From the NCBI GenBank assembly GCA_946480465.1, contig CAMLJY010000113.1:1-14717 (forward strand): DNA of 14,717 nt. Reading direction: 5' to 3'. The notes below the pieces were generated by a model, which was given only the letters and a program-made list of their open reading frames with translations, was not told where the DNA came from and did not search any database. Source of the DNA: an uncultured Burkholderiales bacterium. Lineage in GTDB: Bacteria > Pseudomonadota > Gammaproteobacteria > Burkholderiales > Burkholderiaceae. The position numbers and the translations under genes are program-made. This document shows positions 1,586-13,828 of this stretch, in pieces. Each line of letters begins with the position of its first letter. The stretch's first letter is position 1.

Positions 1586-4580
1586 GTGGTGAAGCAGCCC
1601 GTGGACGTGCCCGAGGCGAGGGATCCAGCAGCAGCGGGGGCGCGCAGCCCGCGCCGCCCGCTGGCCTGGGCACGCCTGCTGCTGTCGGGCCTGCTGCTGG
1701 CGAGCGCCGCGGCCGTGCTGGCCGTCGTCGTGACGGAGGCCCGCAGCTCGCGGCTGCAGGCGCGCGCGCTGAGCCGGCTGGCCGCCGAACTGCATTTCGA
1801 GGTCGAGCCCGGCGCGGCCCCGGCCATCCGCTTTCCCGGCCCCGATGCCGGTCCCTACGACCAGCGCCTGGGCTACACCCGCCTGCCCGGCTTCATCGAG
1901 CGCCTGGCCGCGCGCGGCTTCGTCGTCACCGCGCAGGCGCGCCCCTCGGCCCGGCTGCTGGAGCTGCAGGACCAGGGGCTCTTCGCCATCTACCGCGAGC
2001 GCAGCCAGGCCGGCCTGCTGCTGCAGGACTGCCGCGGCGACGCGCTGTACGCCGAGCGCCTGCCGCGCCGCGTCTACGGGCGCTTCGAGGCGGTGCCGCC
2101 GCTGCTGGTCGACGCGCTGCTCTACATCGAGAACCGCGAGCTGCTCGATCCCGGCGCGCCGATGCGCAACCCTGCCGTCGAATGGGACCGGCTGGCGCAG
2201 GCGGTGGCCGGCCGCGTGCTGCGCGTCATCGACCCCGGCCACCCCGCGCCCGGCGGCAGCACGCTGGCCACGCAGATCGAGAAGTACCGCCACTCGCCCC
2301 AGGGGCGCACCCGCTCGGCGCACGACAAGCTGCAGCAGATGGCCTCGGCCTCGGTGCGCGCCTACCTGGACGGCGAGAACACCGAGGCGCGGCGGCGCCA
2401 GATCGTCGCCGACTACCTGGACACGGTGCCGCTGTCGGCGCAGGCCGGCGTCGGCGAGGTCAACGGCCTGGGCGACGGCCTGTGGGCCTGGTACGGGCGC
2501 GACTTCGATGAAGTCCAGCGCCTGCTGCGCGACCTGGACCGGCCGCCGGCCGGCCGGCCGGACTGGCTGCCAGGGCCGCCCCCCCGAGGTGCAGGCCGCG
2601 CAGGCGCTGCTGGCGCCGACACCGCCCACGCCGGCCGAGCAGGCGCTGGTCTTCAAGCAGGCCTTGTCGTTGCTGGTGGCGCAGCGCCGGCCCTCGTACT
2701 ACCTGGGCGAGGGAGCGGCCAGGCTGGGGCCGCTGACCGACAGCCACCTGCGCGTGATGGCCGAGGCGGGCGTCATCAGCCACGAACTGCGCGACGCCGC
2801 GCTGCCGCTGCCGCTGGCGCTGCTGCCGCGCGCGCCGGCCGAGGACGCCGCGCTGCAGGCCCAGCGCAAGCTCACCGCCACCGCGCGCAGCCGGCTGGCC
2901 GCGCTGCTGGACGTGCCGCAGGCCTACGACCTGGACCGGCTGGACCTGAGCGTGGCAGGCACCATCGACGGTGCGGCCCAGCGCGAGGTGACGCGGCGCC
3001 TGCGCGCACTGCGCGATCCCGCGGCGGCGAAGGCGGCGGGGCTGGTCGGCCAGCACATGCTCGCCCCCGGCGACGACCCCGCGCGGCTGGTCTTCAGCGT
3101 CAGCCTGTACGAACGCGGCGAACGCGCCAACCTGCTGCGGGTGCAGGCCGACAGCGGCGACCAGCCCTTCGACATCAACGAAGGCGCGCGGCTCGACCTG
3201 GGCTCCACCGCCAAGCTGCGCACGCTGGTGACCTACCTGGAACTGGTCGCCGACCTGCACCGGCGCTGGAGCGGGCTGGACGCGGCGGCGCTGCAGGCCC
3301 TGCCGGTGCACGAGCGCGACGCGCTCGGCCGCTGGGCGCGCGAGTACCTGGCGCAGGCCAGCGACCGCAGCCTGCAGGCGATGACCGAGGCGGCGATGGA
3401 ACGCCGCTACTCCGCCAGCCCCGGCGAGGCCTTCCGCACCGGCGGCGGGCTGCACCACTTCGTCAACTTCGACCGCGAGCACGACGGCCGCGTGATGAGC
3501 CTGCGCGAGGCCATGCGCCACTCCGTCAACCTCGTCTTCATCCGGCTGATGCGCGACATCGTGCACCGCCACGTGCACGCCGGGCCCGAGGCCGGCGGCC
3601 CGCCGGATGCCAGCGCCGACCCCGCCGAACGGCGCCGCCTGCTGGAGCGCTTTGCCGACCTGGAAGGCCGCGCCTACATCACCCGCTTCTACCGCCACTA
3701 CCGGGCCCACCCCGAGCAGCTGCCCGCCGCAGGCGCCGACGTCCTGGCCGCGCTGCACCCGCTGGACCAGTGGCTGGTGGGCCACCTGCACCAGCACCCG
3801 AACGCCACGCTCCGCGAGGTGCTGGCCGCCAGCACCCGCCAGCGCCAGGAGGCCTACGCCTGGCTCTTCCGCACGCGCCGCGCCGGCGCGCAGGACGTGC
3901 GCATCCGCAGCCTGCAGGAGGCGGCGGCGTTCCGGAAGATCCTGCAGTCCTGGCAGCGGCTGGGCTACCCCTTCGATGCGCTGACGCCCTCGTACGCCAC
4001 CGCCATCGGCGCCTCCGGCGACCGGCCGGCGGCGCTGGCCGAGTTGATGGGCATCGTCGCCAACGACGGCCTGCGCCTGCCGGCCATCCGCACGGCGGGC
4101 CTGCTCTTCGCGCGCGGCACGCCGTACGAAACGCGGCTGCAGCATCAGCCCGGCGCGGCGCCGCAGCGGGTGCTGCCGGCGGAGGTGGCGCGCACGGTCC
4201 GGCGCGCGCTGGCCGACGTGGTGGCCACGGGCACGGCGCGGCGGCTGCACGGCGCCTTCACCACCGCCGACGGCCGCGTACTTCAGGTGGCAGGAAAGAC
4301 CGGCACCGGCGACCACCGCTTCGAGGTCCATGGCCGCGGCGGCCGCCTGATCTCGTCGCGTGTGCTGAACCGCACCGCCAGCTTCGCCTTCCTGATCGGC
4401 GACCGTCACTACGGCACCGTGATGATCCATGCCCAGGAGCCCGACGCCGCCCGTTTCCGCTTCACCAGCGCGCTGGCGGCGCAGGTGATGAAGTCGCTGG
4501 CGCCGGTGCTGGTGCCTGCGATCGAGGGCGGCAGCGCCTGCCCGGCGCCGCCGCGGTCACCGAAGGCCGCGGGCTGGTGA
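1586..4580 (+). pseudogene. Class A PBP-like peptidoglycan glycosyltransferase/transpeptidase, interrupted by a 1-bp frameshift
   Basis: This is a bifunctional cell-wall synthase: GT51 glycosyltransferase plus penicillin-binding transpeptidase, anchored by an N-terminal membrane segment (about residues 27-48). With one C removed from the run at 2579-2585 it encodes 997 residues. The first frame holds the GT51 motifs: IENREL with the probable catalytic Glu at 182 (family consensus EDRxF), GGSTLATQ at 223-230 (consensus GGSTITQQ) and a YLDTVPLS segment like the family's YLNxVYFG. The second frame holds the rest of GT51 (LLVAQRRPSYYL) and the three transpeptidase motifs: S540-T-A-K543, S646-V-N648 and K904-T-G906. 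All catalytic motifs survive, so the gene looks recently broken, mis-sequenced or recoded. Without correction the first frame runs on to 5173 as Arg/Pro/Ala-rich nonsense. The start is GTG 1586 (an in-frame GTG follows at 1589), with no clear Shine-Dalgarno. Motif 1 is degenerate compared with standard PBP1a/1b, which fits a divergent subfamily. Confidence 0.85.
2546..2561. repeat. (CCGG)x4 tandem palindrome upstream of the frameshift
   Basis: Four perfect CCGG units lie inside the PBP-like gene, ending 17 bp before the C7 run where the frame changes. The block is fully self-complementary and could fold in DNA or RNA. It matters mainly because such structure next to a homopolymer favours polymerase slippage and base-calling errors. 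Confidence 0.5.
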
Positions 4581-4588
4581 GGAAGGTG

Positions 4589-4609
4589 CCCGGGGAGCGC
4601 CTCCCCGGG
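4589..4609. terminator. Strong hairpin between convergent genes, probable bidirectional terminator
   Basis: Arms CCCGGGGAG and CTCCCCGGG form a perfect 9-bp stem with a CGC loop. It starts 8 bp after the PBP-like stop and ends 9 bp before the stop of the converging AfsA-type gene. The downstream tracts (GCCGTTTCC on the plus strand, CACCTTCC on the minus strand) are poor in T, so it is not a textbook rho-independent terminator. Its position between two convergent stops still supports a terminator or transcript-stabilising role. Confidence 0.55.
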
Positions 4610-4618
4610 GCCGTTTCC

Positions 4619-5401
4619 TCACGGCGTGACGAACCGGCCGCCGTCCGCATCGCCCCGCTGCAGGGCGGGCGTGCGCAGGCAGCCCAGGTGACGGTCGGCG
4701 CCGGTCCGCTCCTGGCGCGCCAGCACCGCGCGATCCTGCGAGACGCCCTTGCAGCGGATGGCGGCACATTCATCGCCGGCCTGCTCGAATCGCACCGTCA
4801 GCGCCGACACCAGCAGGGCCGGCCGCGCGAAGTACCGCGTGGCACCGATGGTCAGCCGCATGGCCGTCGGCAGCGGGTACACGAAGCGGCTGAAGCTGGC
4901 TTGAAGCTCCCGCAGCAGGTGCTGCGCGCCGCCGCCGTCGCAGCCGGCCCGCGCGCAGACCTGCGGCGAGACCGCGATGAACATCTGCCGAGCGGCTTCG
5001 ATCAGCACCATGCCCTGCACGTGCAGTCCGGTGGTGTGGTCGGCCAGTTCCGCGCAGCGGTCGTCGATCACCAGCTGCGCGCTGAACGCGTCCGGCCCGC
5101 ACGCCGCCGGCTGCGTGATCACCACGTTGTGCGGCCACCGCTTGTGCACCAGCGCGCGATCGGCGCGGCGTGAGACGTGCTCTTCCAGCACCGGCGCCTG
5201 CCCGCGCGGGCAGCGCGCGACGGCCTGCCGCACCAGCGCCAGGCCTTCCGGACCGACCCCCTGCCCGACGACGATGCGGCGCGCCGGCGCCAGCCGGTCG
5301 CCCGGCCACGCCGCCAGCTGATCCACCGTCGCGACGGTGCTGCCATCGGCCAGCGCGGCGAACTTCTCGCCCACGACCAGGATCGTGCCGTTCATGCCCA
5401 T
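4619..5401 (-). CDS. AfsA-type hot-dog domain protein (A-factor biosynthesis-like)
   Basis: 260 residues. The signature DHTTGLHVQGMVLIEAARQ at 121-139 matches the conserved core of AfsA-family hot-dog domains (usual form DHxxGxHVxGMxLLEAARQ). It is preceded by HKRWPHNVVITQP and FSAQLVIDD, and followed by FVYPLPTAMRLTIGATRYFARP, consistent with one hot-dog fold over about residues 83-225. In Streptomyces, AfsA has two such repeats in about 300 residues and joins a beta-ketoacyl chain from ACP to dihydroxyacetone phosphate to make gamma-butyrolactone signals. Here only one repeat is visible, after about 75 residues of alternating strand/helix pattern (TILVVGEKFA, RRIVVGQGVG) that I cannot assign. 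No signal peptide is seen, so it is probably cytoplasmic. It starts 49 bp after iaaA and is probably co-transcribed. An AGGGGG tract (5405-5410) lies 3 nt from ATG 5401 but 9 nt from the in-frame ATG 5395, so the true start may be the latter. The family call is firm; the reaction is unknown. Confidence 0.82.
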   Translation of the reverse strand: MGMNGTILVVGEKFAALADGSTVATVDQLAAWPGDRLAPARRIVVGQGVGPEGLALVRQAVARCPRGQAPVLEEHVSRRADRALVHKRWPHNVVITQPAACGPDAFSAQLVIDDRCAELADHTTGLHVQGMVLIEAARQMFIAVSPQVCARAGCDGGGAQHLLRELQASFSRFVYPLPTAMRLTIGATRYFARPALLVSALTVRFEQAGDECAAIRCKGVSQDRAVLARQERTGADRHLGCLRTPALQRGDADGGRFVTP

Positions 5402-5450
5402 GCGCCCCCTAGCGTCTGATGTGAGCGTCCGTGCGCGCGCGGCCGGCCGG

Positions 5451-6392
5451 TCATGCGAACACCGCCGTTCCGGGTGCCTCGCCGGACCGCACCCAGCCCC
5501 GGTACATGCCGGGCGAGTTGAACGGCATCGTCAGCGTGCCGTCCCGGCCGAGCGCGATCAGCCCGCCGATGCCGCCCAGGCAAGCCACCGAGAACAGCGC
5601 CTCGGCGGCGGCATCGATGATCCGCGCGCCGCCGTACTGCATGCGCGCATGGACGTCGTGCGCGGCACAGGCGCGGATGAAATGCTCGCCGGTGCCGGTG
5701 GCCGACACCGCGCAGGTGCGGCTGTTGGCGTAGACGCCGGCACCGATGAGCGGCGAATCGCCGATGCGGCCGCGCCGCTTGTTGGTCTGGCCGCCCGTGG
5801 ACGTGGCCGCGGCCAGGTGCCCGCGCTGGTCGAGCGCCACCGCCCCCACCGTGCCCATCTGGGCCGGATCGACGAGCAGCGCCGGCGCCGGCGCCAGGCC
5901 GTGCCGGGCACCCGCGACGTCCACCTCGTGGCCGCAGGCCCGCAGCCACTGCGCATGGCGCTGCTGCGTCGAGAAGTGGGAATTGGGCACCATCGTCAGG
6001 CCGCGCGCGGCGGCGAAGGCCTCCGCACCGTGGCCGCACTGCACCACGCAGCGGCCGTCCAGCAGCACCTCGCGCGCGGCGCTGACCGGGTTGCGCAGCT
6101 TGTGGACCGCCGCGACCGAACCGGCCCGCAGCGTGGCACCGTCCATCACGCCGGCGTCCAGTTCATGCTCGCCGGCCGCGTTGAACACGGCGCCGCGGCC
6201 GGCGTTGAACAGCGGGCAGTCCTCCAGTGCCATCACCGCGGCCACCACCGCATCCAGCGCGGTTCCGCCGGCGCCCAGCACTCTCGTCCCTGCCTCGAGC
6301 GCGTCGCGCAGCCCCTCGTGGTACGGCGCCTCGTCGGCTTCACCGACGGTGATGGTGCCGGCGCCGCCATGCACCGCGAGCACAAAGTCCAT
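5451..6392 (-). CDS. iaaA: Isoaspartyl peptidase / type III L-asparaginase (Ntn hydrolase)
   Basis: A 313-residue precursor of the plant-type asparaginase family (E. coli IaaA has 321). These enzymes cut themselves before a Thr that becomes the nucleophile of the beta subunit, then hydrolyse beta-aspartyl dipeptides and L-asparagine. The cleavage site is clear: G180|T181-VGAVALD, followed by LAAATSTGG. The substrate-binding stretch GRIGDSPLIGAGVYAN (R209, D212) and the oxyanion/glycine motif SATGTGE (230-236) are intact, as are the N-terminal VHGGAG and PLFNAGRGAVF motifs. The call is therefore a functional enzyme, acting in the cytoplasm. ATG 6392 is supported by GGAGG (6399-6403) at 6-nt spacing. 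The gene follows the beta-helix gene by 67 bp and precedes the AfsA-type gene by 49 bp. In other bacteria iaaA is often next to glutathione or peptide transporters; here the nearest transporter is TRAP. Confidence 0.95.
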   Translation of the reverse strand: MDFVLAVHGGAGTITVGEADEAPYHEGLRDALEAGTRVLGAGGTALDAVVAAVMALEDCPLFNAGRGAVFNAAGEHELDAGVMDGATLRAGSVAAVHKLRNPVSAAREVLLDGRCVVQCGHGAEAFAAARGLTMVPNSHFSTQQRHAQWLRACGHEVDVAGARHGLAPAPALLVDPAQMGTVGAVALDQRGHLAAATSTGGQTNKRRGRIGDSPLIGAGVYANSRTCAVSATGTGEHFIRACAAHDVHARMQYGGARIIDAAAEALFSVACLGGIGGLIALGRDGTLTMPFNSPGMYRGWVRSGEAPGTAVFA

Positions 6393-6412
6393 GATGGTCC
6401 TCCGTTGCGCAG

Positions 6413-6424
6413 GGCACCGGTGCC
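6413..6424. repeat. 12-bp palindrome upstream of iaaA
   Basis: GGCACCGGTGCC is a perfect palindrome beginning 20 bp upstream of the iaaA start, in the 67-bp gap after the beta-helix gene. It could be a regulator site or a small transcript hairpin dividing the operon. It is short and GC-rich, so chance is a fair explanation. Confidence 0.25.
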
Positions 6425-6459
6425 GCGTGCAGCGGCGCCACGGCCCGCAGCGAGGCGGC

Positions 6460-8478
6460 TCAACGCGCCCGCTGCGATCGGGCCGCGGTGCCCGCGGGCC
6501 GGCGGTACGCGTTGACACCGAACTCCAGCGGTCGCTCGGCCTGCTGTTGCGCGCCGATGTCCGGACGCTCCATGTCGTTGAAGTTCGGCAGCCACTGCCC
6601 CGCCTGGTACGCCGCCGACCCGGCAATCACCTTGAAATGGCCGCCGGCACTCACGTCCGTGGCCGACAGGTAGAGCTTGCCGACGTATTTGGTCGAGGTG
6701 TCGGCCTTCGGGTCGAGACCGAGCGGCACGTCATAGCCGATCTCGCGCTGCACGGCCGAATCCAGCGCGGCCGCGAACAGGTCGGCATCGAAGTTCAGCG
6801 CCGGCGCGGTCAGGATGTTCCTGCCCGGGACCAGGAAGGTATCGTCCACGCCGCCGCGCGTCAGCTCGTGGTCGACGTCGCTGCTGCCGCAGGCGGCATT
6901 GATGCGCACCGCCGACTTCCGGTTCGGCTTCCAGACCGGCAGGATGTTGTTGCGGCTGACGATGTTGCAGGTGTCTCCACCGGCCTTGTCGATGCCCGCG
7001 GCCACGCCCATCCAGTGCTGGATGCCCAGCCCGCCCGGCGGCCGCGGCTGCAGCGCGGTGTTGTGGAAGAAGTACATGCGCCCGCCATTGACCTTGGCCA
7101 CGTTGGAACCGACCTTGAAGAACGACCCCCGGTCGTCGCTGTCCGGCGTGGGGTTGAATGGGCGGGACAGCCCGGCGTTGTTGTTCATGACGTTGCCGAA
7201 GACGTAGAGCGGACCGATCGACGTCGTGGCGGCCGCGATGCCGACCTGCGCCTGCTCGATGAAATTGCCCCAGATGCGCACGTTGCGGTTGGCGCCTTCG
7301 GCTTCGATGCCGTCGTCGTACACGCCGGCGATCTTGTTGCCGTGGATGTCGGAATCGGCGTAGGGGAAACCTTCGAACGTGAAGTTGTCGCTGCCGCCGA
7401 TGCCGTCGTTGAAGTAATGGCCGGGCACGGCGCTGATCTCGTTGTAGCGAATGACGTGGTTCGAACCGCAGTGGTAGAAGCCGACGGCATTCGCGACATT
7501 GGGATGGCCATAGGCCCAATGCTGCGAGCCGTAACGCGGGTCGCGAATGCGGTTGCGCTGGATGACGACGGTGTGGACCTTGCGCTCGACGGGCGTGCGG
7601 TAGTTCCAGCACCCGATGCCGAACTGCTCGTTGTAGCCCTGGCGGATGATGGCCGTCGGTTCCGAAATCGCAGCGGGCATGTCCTTCCAGCCGCTGCCGA
7701 AGCCGCTGATGTCGTTCTCCACCACCACCACGTGGTGCGCGCCATCCTGCAGCGCGATGCCGCTGCGCTGGCAGTTCTTCAGCGTCAGGCCGCGCACGAT
7801 GACGTAGGCGGCCTGGACATTCACGCAGTTGTGGTAGCTGCCCAGGTACCGGTCCGTCGCCCCCATGTCGATGGTGCTGCCTCCCGGCGCGGCGGTGTAG
7901 AGCACGTAGCCGCCCGGGCTGCCGGATTCCCTGATGTCGTAGGGCACCTCGCTGCGGCTGGGCAGGTGCACGGTCTTGGCGATGGGGAACTCCTCGCTCC
8001 AGGTCGTCACCGTCGTCGCCGAGTACGCCATCGTCGGCGACCACGCCAGCACCTCGTAGCGGGTGCCCGGCGCCAGCTTGACGATGCTGCCGCGGTACTC
8101 CTTGTTCCGCTGGTCGTACCACATCGGCAGCGCGAACTTCCATTCGCCCCCGGCCGGGCGGTAGAACACGTAGGCCGGCTGGGCGCCGTCGCCGCCCGGC
8201 GCTCCCCAGTACAGGCCCAGCGACTGGAACGTGGGGATGGCCTTCAGCGCCGTGCCGAAGTGGGGCTGGCCCAGGCGGAACGGCATCGCCATGTCGTCCG
8301 AGTACTTCAGCTTCGCGCCGGGCTCCAGTTCGGCCGGCTCGTAGCCGACGTTCTGGCGCGGGTCGTTCGTCGCGGCGAAATCACCGGCGCTGCCGGCGGC
8401 CGGCCACAGGCCCAGCGCCGCGGACAGCAGGCCCGTGGCCACGGGCCCCCAGGGGCGCATCACGCAATGAATCGGCAT
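6460..8478 (-). CDS. Secreted right-handed parallel beta-helix protein
   Basis: 672 residues. The N-terminus has a Sec-type signal (about 1-31: hydrophobic ATGLLSAALGLWP, then AAGSAG), so the protein goes to the periplasm or outside. Residues about 85-165 look like a fibronectin-III-type beta domain (YVFYRPAGGEWKF, LAPGTRYEVLAWSP). Residues about 215-515 are beta-helix coils, seen as repeated V-x-I-x-x-N turns: YVIVRGLTLKNC, HHVVVVENDI, HTVVIQRNRI, HVIRYNEIS, RNVRIWGNFIE, YVFGNVMNN, CNIVSRNNIL. The C-terminus has DIGAQQ, common at the end of pectate-lyase or chondroitinase-B-like secreted proteins. Such folds include polysaccharide lyases, hydrolases and non-enzymatic binding proteins; I cannot place the catalytic residues, so no reaction is claimed. 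The frame is open to 8568, but ATG 8478 is chosen because AAGGA (8483-8487) precedes it and a signal peptide follows at once. It lies 113 bp after the second TRAP binding protein. Confidence 0.85.
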   Translation of the reverse strand: MPIHCVMRPWGPVATGLLSAALGLWPAAGSAGDFAATNDPRQNVGYEPAELEPGAKLKYSDDMAMPFRLGQPHFGTALKAIPTFQSLGLYWGAPGGDGAQPAYVFYRPAGGEWKFALPMWYDQRNKEYRGSIVKLAPGTRYEVLAWSPTMAYSATTVTTWSEEFPIAKTVHLPSRSEVPYDIRESGSPGGYVLYTAAPGGSTIDMGATDRYLGSYHNCVNVQAAYVIVRGLTLKNCQRSGIALQDGAHHVVVVENDISGFGSGWKDMPAAISEPTAIIRQGYNEQFGIGCWNYRTPVERKVHTVVIQRNRIRDPRYGSQHWAYGHPNVANAVGFYHCGSNHVIRYNEISAVPGHYFNDGIGGSDNFTFEGFPYADSDIHGNKIAGVYDDGIEAEGANRNVRIWGNFIEQAQVGIAAATTSIGPLYVFGNVMNNNAGLSRPFNPTPDSDDRGSFFKVGSNVAKVNGGRMYFFHNTALQPRPPGGLGIQHWMGVAAGIDKAGGDTCNIVSRNNILPVWKPNRKSAVRINAACGSSDVDHELTRGGVDDTFLVPGRNILTAPALNFDADLFAAALDSAVQREIGYDVPLGLDPKADTSTKYVGKLYLSATDVSAGGHFKVIAGSAAYQAGQWLPNFNDMERPDIGAQQQAERPLEFGVNAYRRPAGTAARSQRAR

Positions 8479-8482
8479 GGTT

Positions 8483-8487
8483 TCCTT
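8483..8487 (-). promoter_or_regulatory. Ribosome binding site fixing the beta-helix gene start
   Basis: AAGGA on the minus strand, 4 nt before ATG 8478. It selects this ATG over the upstream in-frame ATG at 8568 and puts the signal peptide at the N-terminus. Confidence 0.6.
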
Positions 8488-8509
8488 CTCGCAATGGATC
8501 ATGAAACTC

Positions 8510-8530
8510 GGCGCGATGGTCCATCGCGCC
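8510..8530. repeat. 21-bp perfect inverted repeat upstream of the beta-helix gene
   Basis: Arms GGCGCGATGG and CCATCGCGCC are exact reverse complements separated by a single T. The repeat starts 32 bp upstream of the beta-helix start codon, in the 113-bp gap after the second dctP. As DNA it resembles a dimeric regulator's operator. As RNA it would form an 8-bp stem with a 5-nt loop followed by GAGTTTC, a weak terminator-like or attenuator-like structure. Either would let the distal genes be controlled apart from the TRAP genes. Confidence 0.5.
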
Positions 8531-8591
8531 ACGTGGCGTCGTCCAACGACATTCGGACATGAGGGCATGAGCAGCGCTCATGGCGGCGCGA

Positions 8592-9623
8592 TCACCGGGC
8601 GCCGGTGCGCAGGCGGCCGAGCTCGACATAGAGATCGATCACTTCGCTCGCGCCGATGCGGCGGTTGTGCTTGTCGAAGACGTCGCGCAGGCGGTTGCGG
8701 ATGCGTTCGGCGTCCTCGCGCGGGATGCTGCTGACCTGCATGCCCCGCTCGCGCAGGGCCGCCAGGGCCAGGCCCGCGGCCTCGCGGTTCCAGCGCCGCT
8801 GCAGCCCGCGCGACTCCGCGGCCGCCCGCCGCAGCGCCACCCGCTGTTCCGCGCTGAGCCGGTCCCAGTGGCGCCGCGACACGAGCAGCACGAAGGCCGA
8901 ATAGACGTGGCGCGACAGCGTCAGGTACTTCTGCACCTCGTAGAGCCGGCTGCCCAGGATGGTCGGCAGCGGGTTCTCCTGGCCGTCGACGAGCTTCGCG
9001 CGCAGCGCTTCGTACACCTGCGGGAACGGCATCGGCACGGCCTCGAAACCGAGGCGCCGGAAGCTCTCGGTCAGCATCTCGTTCTGCATGGTGCGCAGGC
9101 GCACGCCGCGGAAATCGGCCGCCTGGGCAATGGGCCGCAGGCTGTTGGTGATGTGCCGGAAACCGTTCTCCCAATAGGCCAGGCCCACCAGTCCGTGCGG
9201 CATCAGGCCGTCCAGCTGGCGCTGGCCCCAGGCGCCGTCCAGCAGGGTGTCGGCCTCGGCCTCGTCGAAGAAGGTGAATGGGTAATTGACCGCGGAAAAC
9301 GCGGGATTGAGCTGCGCCAGCGTGCTGCTGTCCGGCGCCGTCATCTCCAGCGTGCCGTCGCGCAGCGCCTGCACCATCGTCAGGTCGTTGCCGAGCTGGC
9401 CGCCCGCGTGCAACTCGATGCGCAGCGCGCCCTGCGCATAGCGATCGACGCGCTGCGCGAAGTCCTGCACCGCGCGGCCCTGGATCGAGTCGGCCGGCAG
9501 GCCGATGCCCACACGCATCTGCAACGGTGCGGAGGCTCGCGCGCCGCCCGCGAGCTGCACCCCTGCCCCCCAGGCCGCCGCCAGCAGCAGCCGCCGGCGC
9601 CGTGCGAATCCATGCTGGTCCAT
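8592..9623 (-). CDS. dctP: TRAP transporter solute-binding protein, DctP family (second copy)
   Basis: A 343-residue periplasmic binding protein that would hand its ligand to DctQM. Family hallmarks: YWENGFRHITN (150-160), the ligand-arginine region VRLRTMQNEM (R177) and LVDGQENP (211-218). The leader MDQHGFARRRRLLLAAAWGAG has a run of four arginines before a mild hydrophobic stretch, which resembles a Tat signal more than a plain Sec signal, with likely cleavage after ARASA. GGAGG at 6-nt spacing supports ATG 9623. It differs substantially from the copy upstream: the pocket neighbour is NEMLTESFRRLG here and NPVYLDTFKSLG there, and it has a longer Arg-rich C-terminus. The pair is therefore old paralogs, not a recent duplication. 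A 164-bp gap with an octamer repeat separates them. The ligand is unknown. Confidence 0.92.
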   Translation of the reverse strand: MDQHGFARRRRLLLAAAWGAGVQLAGGARASAPLQMRVGIGLPADSIQGRAVQDFAQRVDRYAQGALRIELHAGGQLGNDLTMVQALRDGTLEMTAPDSSTLAQLNPAFSAVNYPFTFFDEAEADTLLDGAWGQRQLDGLMPHGLVGLAYWENGFRHITNSLRPIAQAADFRGVRLRTMQNEMLTESFRRLGFEAVPMPFPQVYEALRAKLVDGQENPLPTILGSRLYEVQKYLTLSRHVYSAFVLLVSRRHWDRLSAEQRVALRRAAAESRGLQRRWNREAAGLALAALRERGMQVSSIPREDAERIRNRLRDVFDKHNRRIGASEVIDLYVELGRLRTGAR

Positions 9624-9716
9624 GTCGAACCCTCCACACCAGTGCCACGGAAGCGGCCGGGCGCCAGCCCCGCACGGGCGCACCGCCCCGGCCGCGGTGC
9701 CGGCGCGCGCTGGCAC

Positions 9717-9756
9717 GCCAATGCGCCAATGCGCCAATGCGCCAGTGCGCCAGTGC
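9717..9756. repeat. Five tandem copies of an 8-bp unit between the two dctP genes
   Basis: Three copies of GCCAATGC are followed directly by two of GCCAGTGC, then by GCTGCC, a partial unit. The array sits 93 bp upstream of the second dctP start and 31 bp downstream of the first dctP stop, so a change in copy number would alter no protein. It could change spacing or transcript structure between the two genes. Confidence 0.85.
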
Positions 9757-9787
9757 GCTGCCGAGCTGCCGCGCGATCGCGTTGCCG

Positions 9788-10813
9788 CTACTGCGCGCCG
9801 CGCAGCTTGGCCAGCGCGGACTGGGCCTCCTGCCACAGGTCCATGCCCACCGTGGTGGCGATGCCGGCATTGACGGTGGTCAGCTTGTCGCGCATGCGGC
9901 CGGTTTCCTTCGGCGCGATCTTGTTGAAGACCATGCCCTTGGCCTGCAGGTCCGCCAGGGCGCGTGCCGCCGCCTCGCGCGTGTCCTTGCGCTCGAACGC
10001 CCGGCTGGCGCGGGCGGCATCCGCCAGCACCTTCTGCTCGTCCTTGCTCAGGCCGTCCCAGTACTTCCTGCTGACCAGCACGATGAAGGGGCTGTAGGCA
10101 TGGTTCGTCGCGCTGACGTACTTCTGCACCTCGTAGAACTTGCCGGACAGGATGTTCGTGTACGGGTTCTCCTGGCCGTCGACGGTGCCGGTCTCCAGGG
10201 CCGGGAACAGTTCCGGGAACGCCAGCGGCACGGGGTTGGCGCCGAGGCTCTTGAAGGTGTCCAGGTACACCGGGTTCTGCATCACGCGCAGCTTGATGCC
10301 CTCCAGGTCCTGCGCGGTCTGGATCGGCTTCTTGTTGTTGGTGACGTTGCGGAAGCCGTTCTCCCAGTAGACGAGGCCGACCAGGCCCTTGTCCTGCAGC
10401 CTGTCCATCACCTTCTGGCCCACCGGGCCGTCGAGGATGGCATCGGCCTCCTGCGTGTTGTTGAACAGGAAGGGCGTGTCCCACAGCGCCATTTCCTTGG
10501 CGATGCCCACCAGCGTGGCGGTGGAGCCCACCATCATTTCCTGCGCGCCGCCGATCAGCGCCTGCTGCATCTGCACGTCGGTGCCCAGCGCGGCGCCGCC
10601 CACGGCGCGCACCTTCATCTTGCCGCCCGAGGCCTTCTCGACCTGCTCGGCGAAGAACTTGACGGCGCGCCCCTGGTTGCTGGCCTCCGCCAGCCCGTAG
10701 CCGAACCGGATGACCCGGGCCTTGACGTCCTGCGCCTGCGCGGCGGCCGGCGCCAGCACCCCGAGGGCGCATGCGAGGGAAACGGAAAGGGTGAGGCGGC
10801 GCAACGGGATCAT
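9788..10813 (-). CDS. dctP: TRAP transporter solute-binding protein, DctP family (first copy)
   Basis: A 341-residue periplasmic receptor for a TRAP transporter. It has a normal Sec signal (MIPLRRLTLSVSLACALGVL, cleavage after AQA at about 27), then the DctP-family core: YWENGFRNVTNNKKPI (149-164), IKLRVMQNPVYLDTFKSLG with the probable carboxylate-binding R176, and TVDGQENPYTNI (210-221). Most characterised members bind C4-dicarboxylates, sugar acids, 2-keto acids or similar organic acids. The conserved Arg implies a carboxylate ligand, but the exact one cannot be read. ATG 10813 has AGGAG at 6-nt spacing. It starts 37 bp after dctM, in the common Q-M-P order, and is the likely cognate receptor of this membrane pair. 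Confidence 0.95.
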   Translation of the reverse strand: MIPLRRLTLSVSLACALGVLAPAAAQAQDVKARVIRFGYGLAEASNQGRAVKFFAEQVEKASGGKMKVRAVGGAALGTDVQMQQALIGGAQEMMVGSTATLVGIAKEMALWDTPFLFNNTQEADAILDGPVGQKVMDRLQDKGLVGLVYWENGFRNVTNNKKPIQTAQDLEGIKLRVMQNPVYLDTFKSLGANPVPLAFPELFPALETGTVDGQENPYTNILSGKFYEVQKYVSATNHAYSPFIVLVSRKYWDGLSKDEQKVLADAARASRAFERKDTREAAARALADLQAKGMVFNKIAPKETGRMRDKLTTVNAGIATTVGMDLWQEAQSALAKLRGAQ

Positions 10814-10850
10814 CGATGTCTCCTAACGTCCATTGACAGTGAGTGAAGAT

Positions 10851-12143
10851 TCAGCGCATCCAGGACAGCGGCACGGTCACCACGCCCGGAACGGCCACGA
10901 GAAGGGACAGGATCAGCAGGTACGACAGCAGGAACGGGTTGACGCCCTTGATGACGCCGTGCAGCGACAGCCGGCCGACGCCGGCCACCACGTTGAGCAC
11001 GGTGCCCACCGGCGGGGTGATGAGGCCGATGGCACCGTTGAGGATGAACATCAGCCCGAAGTACACCGGGTCGATGCCGGCTTTCACGGCCAGCGGCAGC
11101 ATCACCGGCGCGAAGATCAGGATGGTCGGCGTCAGGTCCAGCGCGGTGCCGATGAGCACCAGCGACAGCATCATCGCCAGCATCAGCAGCCGCGGGCTGT
11201 CCACCAGCGGGCCGAGCAGCCCGCTGAGCACCGTGGTGCTGTCGGCCAGCGTGATCATGTAGCTGACCACCTGGGCCCCGGCGCACAGGAACATCACGAT
11301 GGCCGTGGTCCTGGACGCGCGCAGCAGCACGCCGTAGAGCGCGGTGAGTTTCATCTCGCGGTGCACGGCGAGGGAGACGAGCAGCGCGTAGAAGGCCGCC
11401 ACCACCGCGGCTTCGGTGGGCGTGAACACGCCCGTCTTCATGCCGCCGATGATGATCACCGGCATCAGCAGCGCCCAGAAGGCCCGCCCCATCGCGCGCA
11501 GCCGGTCGGCCCAGGACAGGCGGTCCTCGGCCGGCAGGTCGAGGCGCCGCATCACCAGCTTCCAGGTCAGCAGCAGCGCCACGCCCATCAGCAGCCCGGG
11601 CGCGATGCCCGACAGGAAGAGCGCCGAAATCGAGGTGTTGGTGGTGACGCCGTAGATCACGAACGGCATCGACGGCGGGATGATGGGCGCGATGATGCCG
11701 CCCGAGGCGATGAGGCCGGCCGAGGTGTTCATCGGATAGCCGCGCTCGCGCATCATCGGCAGCAGGATGGTGGCCAGCGCCGCGGTGTCGGCCAGGGCCG
11801 AGCCGCTCATGCTGGCCATCAGCACCGCGGCGGCGATGGCCACGTAGCCCAGCCCGCCACCGACGTGGCCGAACCAGGCCTGCGCGGCCTGGATGATGCG
11901 GCGGCTCAGGCCGCCCGCGTTCATCAGCTCGCCGGCCAGCACGAAGAAGGGCACGGCCAGCAGCGGGAAGCTGTCCACCCCGGCCACCAGGTTCTGCGCC
12001 AGCAGCTGGGTGTCCCAGAACCCCAGCGCCCAGGCCATGGCCGCCGCGATGAGCACCAGGGCCAGGCCCATGTTCATGCCGATGCCCAGCAGCAGCACCA
12101 TGCCGCCGATGAACAGGGCGAAGGCGAGCCACTCGTCGCTCAT
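10851..12143 (-). CDS. dctM: TRAP transporter large membrane subunit DctM
   Basis: A 430-residue inner-membrane protein with about twelve hydrophobic segments. It is the sodium- or proton-coupled transport channel of the TRAP complex. Family motifs are clear: VPFFVLAGELMNAGGLSRR (TM2-loop), LMASMSGSALADTAALATI, SAGLIASGGIIAPIIPPS (the conserved PPS re-entrant region), GVFTPTEAAVVAAFYAL and the C-terminal GLITPPVGTVLNV. The length matches the family (about 425-430). ATG 12143 is preceded by AGGAG at 7-nt spacing. It lies 60 bp after dctQ and 37 bp before dctP, so the three subunits are almost certainly co-transcribed. Confidence 0.97.
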   Translation of the reverse strand: MSDEWLAFALFIGGMVLLLGIGMNMGLALVLIAAAMAWALGFWDTQLLAQNLVAGVDSFPLLAVPFFVLAGELMNAGGLSRRIIQAAQAWFGHVGGGLGYVAIAAAVLMASMSGSALADTAALATILLPMMRERGYPMNTSAGLIASGGIIAPIIPPSMPFVIYGVTTNTSISALFLSGIAPGLLMGVALLLTWKLVMRRLDLPAEDRLSWADRLRAMGRAFWALLMPVIIIGGMKTGVFTPTEAAVVAAFYALLVSLAVHREMKLTALYGVLLRASRTTAIVMFLCAGAQVVSYMITLADSTTVLSGLLGPLVDSPRLLMLAMMLSLVLIGTALDLTPTILIFAPVMLPLAVKAGIDPVYFGLMFILNGAIGLITPPVGTVLNVVAGVGRLSLHGVIKGVNPFLLSYLLILSLLVAVPGVVTVPLSWMR

Positions 12144-12203
12144 GCGCCTGCTCCTGCGTTGACGCGTTCTTTACGAATCAGCATGGTCGTTGTCCGGTGG
12201 CGT

Positions 12204-12791
12204 TCATTCGAGGTCCTGGGCATGGCCCAGGTGCAGCGGCCGGCGCTGCAGCAGCTGCAGCGCCGCCATGGCGCCGATGGCCAGCGAACACAGCAGCGCC
12301 GGCAGCGGCAGCAGCGCACTGGGGTAGCCCAGCACCACCGAGCGACTGCCCAGCCCGACCACCACCTGCTGCCAGGCACCCCAGGCCAGCAGGGCCGAGG
12401 CCAGCACCACCAGCAGCCGGATCACGACCGCGGCCAGCGCCAGCACGCCGGGCCGGCCCTTCAGCGCCTGCAGCAGGCTGTTGAAGGCCATGTGCTCGCC
12501 GGCCGGGTAGGCCAGCGTCGCGCCGATGAAGACCATCCACACGAAGAGCAGGCGCGCCAGTTCCTCGCCGCCGGCCATGCCGGTGCCGAAGCCGTAGCGC
12601 AGCACGACGTTGATGAACACGGCCGCCGCCATCACGGCCATGCAGCCGGCCATCGCCACGCGGCAGGCCCCTGCGCCGAAGGCCAGCAGGGCGGCACCGG
12701 CACCGCCTTCAGGCGCGGCGGGCCCGCGCCCGGCGCGCTGATCGTCCATCACCGCGGGCGCGGGTGGCGCCGGCCGGGGCTTCGGCTTCAT
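12204..12791 (-). CDS. dctQ: TRAP transporter small membrane subunit DctQ
   Basis: 195 residues with four hydrophobic segments, the DctQ layout. The family signature NVVLRYGFGTGMAGGEELAR, followed directly by LLFVWMVFIGA, spans about residues 61-91. DctQ pairs with DctM and supports docking of the binding protein. The N-terminal ~35 residues (Pro/Ala-rich, KPKPRPAPPAP) are an unusual cytoplasmic extension. The frame is open to 12824, but that would overlap the dehydrogenase gene. AAGGAG at 5-nt spacing marks ATG 12791, which leaves a 26-bp gap after the dehydrogenase gene. The sequence is typical of the family apart from the extension. Confidence 0.93.
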   Translation of the reverse strand: MKPKPRPAPPAPAVMDDQRAGRGPAAPEGGAGAALLAFGAGACRVAMAGCMAVMAAAVFINVVLRYGFGTGMAGGEELARLLFVWMVFIGATLAYPAGEHMAFNSLLQALKGRPGVLALAAVVIRLLVVLASALLAWGAWQQVVVGLGSRSVVLGYPSALLPLPALLCSLAIGAMAALQLLQRRPLHLGHAQDLE

Positions 12792-12796
12792 GGCAT

Positions 12797-12802
12797 CTCC
12801 TT
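12797..12802 (-). promoter_or_regulatory. Ribosome binding site fixing the dctQ start
   Basis: AAGGAG on the minus strand, 5 nt before ATG 12791. It favours this start over the open upstream extension to 12824 and shows that dctQ has its own initiation site after the dehydrogenase stop. Confidence 0.7.
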
Positions 12803-12817
12803 CGGGCGCGGCATCCG

Positions 12818-13828
12818 CTACCACGCGTTCACCCAGTTCCGCGGTGCCTCGCCCCGAAGCACGCGCACCGCCTCCTCGGCCGCCTTGCGCTGCAGTTCGC
12901 GCATCGACTCCTCGCTGTACCAGCCGACGTGGTTGGTCACGATGACGTTGTCGAGGGCGAAGAGCGGGTGCGACAGGTCCGGCGGCTCGGGATCGAAGAC
13001 GTCGAGGCCCGCGCCGAGCAGCTGGCCGGCGCTCATCGCCGCATGCAGCGCGTCGAGGTCCACCAGGCCGCCCCGCGCGGGGTTGACCAGGATGGCGCCC
13101 GGCGGCATCAGCGCGAGCCGGCGCGCATGGGCCAGGTGGCGGGTATCGGCGTTCAAGGGCGCGTGGAGCGAGACCAGGTCGGACTCGGCGAACAGCGTGT
13201 CGAGGTCCGCCGCCTGCACGCCGCCGGGCAGGTCGGCATGGGGGTCGTGCACCAGCACGCGCGCGAAGCCGAAGCCCATCAGCTTCTCCTGCGTCATGCG
13301 CGCGATGCGGCCGTAGCCCACCAGCCCCAGGGTGCGGCCGCGCCAGCGGTACATGGGCTTGAGCACGCCCGCGGACCAGCGGCCGGCGCGCACCTCGGCG
13401 TCGTGCAGCCGCAGGCGCCGGGCCACCGCCAGCGCCAGCGCCACGGCCTGGCTGCTGACCTCGTCGACGCCGTAGTCCGGCACGTTGGCGACCACGACGC
13501 CGCGCTCGCGCGCAGCCGCCAGGTCGACGTTGTCGACGCCCACCCCGTAGCGCACGATCGCCCGCAGCCGCGGCAGCGCCTCGATCACCGGGCGCGACAG
13601 CGGCGACTCGCGCACCAGCACCACGTCAGCGTCCCGCGCGGCCAGGGCCACGGCCGCGGGGTCGCCGCCGCACGGCCGCACCTGGAACTGCGCCCCCACC
13701 GCGCCGAGCAGCGCCGCCTCCTGGTCGTAGGCGGCGTAGCCGTCGTCCACCGCGACCACGCGATGCTTCAGGGCGTCGGGGCCCCGGTTGGAGGCCGGTC
13801 GGGACGGTGTCGGGAGGCAATGGTCCAT
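12818..13828 (-). CDS. D-isomer-specific 2-hydroxyacid dehydrogenase, CtBP-like
   Basis: A 336-residue cytoplasmic NAD(P)-dependent oxidoreductase that interconverts a 2-hydroxy acid and a 2-keto acid. The Rossmann loop is LGLVGYGRIARM (GxGxxA, 171-176), with D195 (VHDP) placed to bind the NAD ribose, which suggests NAD over NADP. The catalytic triad is present: R252 (NPARGG), E281 (FDPEPP) and H300 (NHVGWYSEES). The HVGWYSEES tail and RKAAEEAVRVLRGEAPRN resemble the C-terminal-binding-protein-like branch more than SerA; no ACT domain is present, so serine biosynthesis is unlikely. It is the first gene of the run and is divergent from the GntR gene, so its substrate is probably the imported compound or an early product. 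The start is ATG 13828; no Shine-Dalgarno is visible, and residues 1-20 are not family-like, so a later start is possible. Confidence 0.92.
   Translation of the reverse strand: MDHCLPTPSRPASNRGPDALKHRVVAVDDGYAAYDQEAALLGAVGAQFQVRPCGGDPAAVALAARDADVVLVRESPLSRPVIEALPRLRAIVRYGVGVDNVDLAAARERGVVVANVPDYGVDEVSSQAVALALAVARRLRLHDAEVRAGRWSAGVLKPMYRWRGRTLGLVGYGRIARMTQEKLMGFGFARVLVHDPHADLPGGVQAADLDTLFAESDLVSLHAPLNADTRHLAHARRLALMPPGAILVNPARGGLVDLDALHAAMSAGQLLGAGLDVFDPEPPDLSHPLFALDNVIVTNHVGWYSEESMRELQRKAAEEAVRVLRGEAPRNWVNAW

Follow-up and report, generated by a model that had tools for sequence, protein, structure and literature searches.

An AfsA-related standalone hotdog gene in a Burkholderiales contig

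The gene and its surroundings

We analyzed a 14.7-kb stretch of DNA (14,717 nucleotides; hereafter, the window) in which one minus-strand gene encodes a free-standing protein related to AfsA. The features discussed below, with the evidence for each in brackets, are as follows.

4619..5401, minus strand: AfsA-related standalone hotdog gene (open reading frame, PF03756, relatives in public assemblies)
4745..5152, minus strand: single AfsA hotdog domain (PF03756), residues 84-219 (Pfam, model, alignment)
4964..4966, minus strand: position 146, Pro in the window protein and Gly/Ala in four clade relatives (alignment)
4985..5041, minus strand: core motif, residues 121-139 (alignments)
5168..5395, minus strand: N-terminal alpha/beta domain, residues 3-78, with invariant Q47-G48 (model, alignments A2 and A4)
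5451..6536, minus strand: beta-aspartyl peptidase/asparaginase, PF01112 (Pfam, 326 bits; NCBIfam equivalog below its cut-off)
8592..12824, minus strand: TRAP transporter genes DctQ, DctM, DctP, and a second DctP (Pfam)
12818..13828, minus strand: D-2-hydroxyacid dehydrogenase, first gene of the same-strand row (Pfam, NCBIfam)

The frame at 4619-5401 is open for 260 codons, and the first ATG of the gene is directly preceded by AGGGGGCGC. In two relatives (P0003 and P0004), the protein starts at the residue corresponding to Met3 of the window protein, and the true translation start is therefore probably base 5395, giving a protein of 258 amino acids. Among the 19 protein matches, one from a public assembly is 99% identical over the full length (P0001); its assembly possibly comes from the same sample as the window or from a related one. 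Four more, also from public assemblies, are 65 to 75% identical (P0002-P0005), and the other 14 reach at most 39%.

The neighbors in the window are genes for a penicillin-binding protein, an MFS transporter, a beta-aspartyl peptidase/asparaginase, a beta-helix protein, a TRAP transporter, a 2-hydroxyacid dehydrogenase, and a GntR regulator. The same-strand row runs from the 2-hydroxyacid dehydrogenase through DctQ-DctM-DctP-DctP, the beta-helix protein, and the beta-aspartyl peptidase to the AfsA gene, which comes last. The peptidase gene, upstream on the same strand across a 49-base gap, is a possible operon partner; a consensus scan of 4300-6700 found no sigma-70-like promoter. In 12 Burkholderiales genomes, the best of 56 with a peptidase match, no other window gene was found near the peptidase within up to ~10 kb on each side. 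The initial annotation had placed this DNA in a probable betaproteobacterium, and the neighboring DctP agrees: the named matches listed for it are mostly Burkholderiales, among them Burkholderiaceae, Rhizobacter, Albitalea, Curvibacter, and Ramlibacter.

Two further observations concern the neighbors themselves. The gene between the TRAP DctP and beta-aspartyl peptidase genes (6460-8568, minus strand) encodes a right-handed beta-helix protein of roughly 675-700 amino acids, with weak Beta_helix and NosD matches. On the plus strand, the penicillin-binding-protein gene at 1586-4580 is split, with its transglycosylase (Transgly) and transpeptidase domains in different frames, so it is either frame-shifted or contains a sequence error.

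A single hotdog with a conserved N-terminal domain

In Streptomyces, antibiotic production is under the control of hormone-like butyrolactones and butenolides, which are synthesized by AfsA-type enzymes. The initial annotation assigned the window gene to this family as a hot-dog protein and proposed a profile search and a structure prediction as checks, both of which support the assignment. PF03756 matches the window protein once, at residues 84-219 (E 7.6e-16), with 58.8 bits against a curated cut-off of 24, and an AlphaFold2 model built on 79 aligned sequences shows a hotdog with a mean pLDDT of 93.8 and a pTM of 0.88. In model numbering, to which 2 is added to obtain protein numbering, a small alpha/beta domain at 4-71 is followed by the hotdog, which has two short strands (97-100 and 103-108), a long central helix (128-149), and four long strands (157-168, 178-189, 194-205, and 208-221); a C-terminal helix closes the chain. 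The fold call is drawn solely from the secondary structure of the model together with the profile match. The one PF03756 stretch and the one hotdog of the model agree with the single repeat given in the initial annotation, and the window protein is an AfsA-superfamily member in compact form.

The comparison with the classical enzymes is informative. Two Streptomyces ScbA/BarX-type controls, both scoring above the ScbA/BarX cut-off, gave two PF03756 stretches each in the same scan, and Rhodococcus GblA is also described as having two AfsA repeats (PMC5735094). The window protein shares with the AfsA/ScbA/BarX group the PF03756 hotdog, the E..RQ of the central helix, and the H-K/R motif with which the domain opens. 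It differs in having one repeat and an extra N-terminal alpha/beta domain, and it scores 30.4 bits against the ScbA/BarX equivalog (NF041195), well below the cut-off of 200. On this score and the single repeat, we classify it as not a ScbA/BarX-type butyrolactone synthase. A Pfam scan of 11 window frames found neither a TetR/ArpA-type receptor nor a known butyrolactone reductase, which bears out the initial annotation's statement that neither adjoins the gene; its caution about butyrolactone signaling was right. Superfamily membership and the portable chemistry of the pathway would also suit a genuine synthase of gamma-butyrolactone hormones (A-factor type) whose receptor and reductase lie elsewhere in the genome, but the equivalog score, the single repeat, and the lack of both genes among the scanned frames make this very unlikely.

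The active-site motifs are those of the superfamily. Residues 121-139 of the window protein read DHTTGLHVQGMVLIEAARQ. In an alignment of eight sequences (three standalone hotdogs, one domain embedded in a polyketide synthase, and both repeats of the Streptomyces AfsA-type proteins L099 and L100), E135, R138, and Q139 align with E..RQ in all eight. This places the conserved Glu and Arg that the initial annotation wished to locate, since E135 and R138 match the E..R of both repeats in L099 and L100. In ScbA, the corresponding Glu and Arg are the catalytic residues. The H-K/R start motif of the window domain is as in repeat 1 of the two-repeat proteins, while its DH...H..GM..EAARQ motif is nearest to repeat 2. 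The single-hotdog form may be similar to the one that preceded the duplication behind two-repeat AfsA. Two single-hotdog chains probably associate, and such a homodimer would have the double-hotdog core that a two-repeat AfsA holds within a single polypeptide. His86-Lys87, Asp121-His122, His127, Glu135, Arg138, and Gln139 are conserved, and their positions in the alignment and secondary structure suggest that they surround an active site at the long helix.

To describe the wider family, we scanned species-representative genomes; of the 155 relatives found, the 80 best-scoring loci were retained. Near-duplicate species are present among them and the loci were selected by score, so they do not amount to 80 independent observations. 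Alignment A2 omits 20 of the 80: L044, L047, and L080, which have short or compromised frames, and 17 that were picked by eye as kin of kept rows. The apparent AfsA-histidine kinase fusion in L047 was dismissed because its frame crosses unread bases and thus gives no evidence for a fusion.

PF03756 is matched by all 79 aligned members at E<=0.05 (best E 1.1e-21). Fifteen residues are invariant in all 79, the window protein included: Q47, G48, H86, K87, N92, D121, H122, H127, G130, E135, R138, Q139, P176, Q207, and E231 (protein numbering). All 15 are also unchanged in 103 of 103 further relatives (P0141-P0243), which come from the best 120 of 345 at E<=1e-15; beyond the best 120, the 345 may take in other AfsA types. 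In the core motif of these 103, G125 is the same throughout, as are D121, H122, H127, G130, E135, R138, and Q139. Because Q47 and G48 are invariant and lie within the N-terminal domain, the N-terminal part is a family trait. The initial annotation had described a single repeat and an unassigned N-terminal part. Both are present, and no Pfam family matches the N-terminal domain of the window protein above cut-off, but the arrangement is not peculiar to this protein: the 79 aligned members all share it, as do all 103 further relatives. Judged by these alignments, an N-terminal part followed by a single hotdog is the conserved build of a standalone "AfsA-related hotdog" family, and the window protein carries the family signature (a QG N-terminal domain, then a hotdog with HK, N, DH, H, G, E..RQ, P, Q, and E). 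A profile search of the N-terminal domain against the PDB gave nothing convincing; its best match, to TetR proteins, spanned 29 positions with an E of 0.024.

A different kind of hotdog enzyme also has to be weighed. The window protein could be an ordinary thioesterase- or dehydratase-like enzyme acting on acyl-CoA or acyl-ACP and having nothing to do with butenolide synthesis, its AfsA match reflecting shared hotdog ancestry only. A PDB sequence search with the window protein itself found no match, while profile A2 weakly matched hotdog dehydratases that act on beta-hydroxyacyl-ACP (best E 0.0013); weak 4HBT_2 matches in 4 of the 79 members and a FabA match in one point the same way. Against these stand the PF03756 match in every member, compared with at most four members for any other hotdog family (best E 0.0017), and the E..RQ and DH..H..G motifs, which follow AfsA. 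This alternative would also leave unexplained the phosphatase gene found beside 71 of the 80 relatives, and we judge it unlikely.

Phosphatase and other partner genes of the relatives

The initial annotation had suggested surveying the neighbors of homologs for a conserved partner. Such a partner exists, and it is a HAD-IB phosphatase rather than a receptor. In the first clustering of neighbor genes, a HAD phosphatase was the dominant partner (59 of 80 loci), and its representative passes the TIGR01490 (HAD-IB) cut-off. A HAD profile search then matched in 73 of the 80 loci, with the HAD-IB gene on the same strand, downstream, and less than 4.5 kb away in 71; these 71 span Actinomycetota, Bdellovibrionota, Myxococcota, and Pseudomonadota. 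Three HAD places were found elsewhere in those 80 loci, and in L003 and L079 the match lies only elsewhere than the downstream place. Seven loci have no HAD match (L036, L039, L044, L047, L054, L075, and L078), of which L044 holds just a short AfsA frame, L047 has unread bases, and L075 lies on a contig that ends soon after the gene.

Other samples give a mixed picture. Four loci of the Burkholderiales sample on contigs outside the 80 (L141-L144) all have a HAD match within ~5 kb of the AfsA domain; in one of them this domain is part of a polyketide synthase. In a Burkholderia/Paraburkholderia genus sample around G007, PF03756 scored above its cut-off in 9 of 117, and 4 of these nine loci (L132-L140) have a HAD match, three of the four (L132, L133, and L135) being genomes already in the 80. 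Among the six new loci, in stretches of ~3.3 kb, one has a HAD match (L138), and two (L136 and L139) fall outside the standalone-family profile. For L091, a second Streptomyces copy, the 3.6-kb stretch contains no HAD match, and the Streptomyces clavuligerus and Mycetohabitans plasmid copies have no annotated HAD gene within ~5-6 kb in a gene table that is incomplete. HAD pairing is thus usual, not universal. As a separate observation, in three Burkholderia/Paraburkholderia-type loci of the genus sample (L134, L137, and L140), the AfsA hotdog adjoins a short-chain dehydrogenase match, not HAD, in the short stretch.

The lack of a HAD-IB partner is an odd feature of the window locus. With filters off, the six frames of the 14.7-kb window gave no HAD match; this search covered the window, and a HAD gene may lie elsewhere in the genome. 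The ketoacyl synthase, thiolase, and short-chain reductase of the partner groups gave no above-chance match in the window either. Of eleven other partner profiles, the general MFS-transporter profile alone had a clear match, which was the MFS gene at 195-1673 (E 3.7e-9), and the remaining matches were at chance level (E 0.08-0.9).

Several other genes recur beside the relatives. Two groups, c2 and c5 (200-aa and 280-aa proteins), are both present in 36 of the 80 loci, and one scanned representative of each had no Pfam or NCBIfam match. FAD monooxygenases occur in 14 of the 80. In 14 loci, a family-3 solute-binding protein is accompanied by a histidine kinase, and ten of these loci also have a GGDEF-group match, the Pfam domains of these three groups being read from one representative each. 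Together with the AfsA hotdog and HAD genes, the solute-binding/kinase set looks like a system for a small molecule that is both made and sensed. The loci with this set are L012, L015, L018-L020, L028, L030, L040, L049-L051, L061, L062, and L076. The Ruegeria pomeroyi megaplasmid locus (L105, 2570-9596) is a named and annotated example of a larger cluster, with genes for an MFS protein, a CMD-family protein, an aldo/keto reductase, a LysR regulator, two hypothetical proteins that correspond to c2 and c5, the AfsA hotdog, a tautomerase, and HAD-IB.

In the Burkholderiales locus L095/L141, the AfsA domain belongs to a polyketide synthase (L141, 7156-12686) with a C-terminal ACP and one PF03756 domain. 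The synthase gene is directly followed by a HAD phosphatase gene, which begins 3 bases past the synthase stop, and by one for a FAD monooxygenase. The locus possibly encodes a further butenolide-releasing synthase besides that of gladiostatin.

The gladiostatin synthase of Burkholderia gladioli provides the chemical precedent. Its terminus, the ACP-AfsA-like di-domain of GdsF, is described as condensing 3-ketothioesters with dihydroxyacetone phosphate in vitro; the authors call the domain a phosphorylated butenolide synthase and report two putative phosphatases in the cluster (PMC7756379). Like the window protein, GdsF has an AfsA-like domain in a betaproteobacterium. By its description, however, that domain is fused to a polyketide synthase module and has putative phosphatases in its cluster, whereas the window protein is free-standing with an N-terminal domain of its own and adjoins neither a polyketide synthase nor a phosphatase.

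Another known protein, R. pomeroyi WP_011242119.1, matches the standalone-family profile (E 1.3e-90), and its gene has LysR, tautomerase, and HAD-IB neighbors. Quorum sensing in Chromobacterium subtsugae co-induces an AfsA-related hotdog gene (U6115_04635) and the adjoining HAD-IB gene, both within the most strongly induced cluster, for which no product is reported (PMC12114271); we liken this protein by its name and its HAD-IB neighbor, not by sequence. A literature search, with most subscription papers outside its reach, found no standalone family member that had been studied biochemically.

The usual HAD-IB neighbor favors phosphorylated-butenolide-type chemistry for the family. By analogy, the reading of the window protein that we favor, at about an even chance, is an AfsA-superfamily enzyme that condenses acyl thioesters in this way. 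It would take a beta-ketoacyl thioester (ACP or CoA) as substrate and join the acyl unit to a hydroxylated phosphate of small size, which the precedent suggests is dihydroxyacetone phosphate, and the product would be a phosphorylated acyl butenolide or a corresponding ester. For the majority of the relatives that we examined, the phosphate would then be removed by the HAD-IB phosphatase encoded up to ~4 kb downstream. Since no phosphatase adjoins the window gene, one of three variants would apply here: dephosphorylation by an enzyme encoded elsewhere, direct use of the phosphorylated product, or a different acceptor. The end product would be a signal or another specialized metabolite, and the initial annotation's suggestion that the protein makes a different acyl-derived metabolite is plausible.

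Overall, a compact AfsA form beside a phosphatase in 71 of 80 loci, across four phyla, points to an uncharacterized small-molecule pathway in Proteobacteria. The first two steps of this candidate pathway are directly testable.

Divergence and rarity of the window clade

In a quick maximum-likelihood tree of 79 relatives, the window protein groups with P0002-P0005 (SH-aLRT 100). The stem of this five-member clade is long, at 1.5 changes per column, and it has no clear sister. All five members retain the 15 invariant residues, E135 and R138 included, so these positions look constrained. Position 146 behaves differently: Glu is present in 73 of the 74 other aligned relatives and in 99 of the 103 further relatives, while it is absent from the clade. 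The loss of E146, taken with the long stem, suggests that the chemistry of the clade may have changed. Unlike the R. pomeroyi and C. subtsugae genes, the window gene has no HAD-IB neighbor, and its clade is an outlying branch without E146. From its sequence, the window protein appears to be a constrained yet divergent offshoot of the family without a nearby phosphatase partner.

A change of role would also be consistent with the long stem and the clade-wide loss of E146. The clade might have shifted to another acceptor, or to a binding or regulatory role tied to the TRAP, hydroxyacid dehydrogenase, and isoaspartyl peptidase genes; the lack of a HAD gene in the window and the 49-base gap to the same-strand peptidase gene fit such a tie. 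Every family-invariant position is retained, however, and the synteny of the 12 best peptidase genomes, where the other window genes are missing, is unsupportive. We regard this shift as improbable. Under the condensing-enzyme reading, the window protein, with all invariant residues and no nearby phosphatase gene, would reveal if the product of the pathway depends on the phosphatase and on E146.

A broader proposal, which we put forward as a doubtful speculation, is that the standalone hotdog and HAD-IB pair, accompanied in 14 of 80 loci by the solute-binding/kinase set, represents a little-recognized butenolide-type pathway across Gram-negatives, possibly used in signaling. The window clade would then be an offshoot that lacks the phosphatase and one glutamate and so makes a different, perhaps phosphorylated, product.

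The family is rare among the Burkholderiales genomes searched. The window clade was absent from a 399-genome Burkholderiales order sample, which gave six matches at no more than 35% identity: four convincing AfsA hotdogs (G001, G278, G289, and G347), one embedded in a polyketide synthase (G109), and one weak match (G100). None of the profiles agrees with L096, the weak match from the order sample. A 399-genome family sample likewise held no clade member among three matches at up to 40% identity; one was clear, in the center genome G001 itself, and two were weak. Such scarcity nearby would suit a recently acquired gene that is functionless in its host, an idea we consider extremely improbable because clade members at 65 to 75% identity retain all invariant residues. 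Among the best 80 of the 155 loci in the species-representative scan, no relative exceeded 43% identity (best segment). No relatives were found in viral contigs, and plasmids yielded 17 records, each below 60% identity.
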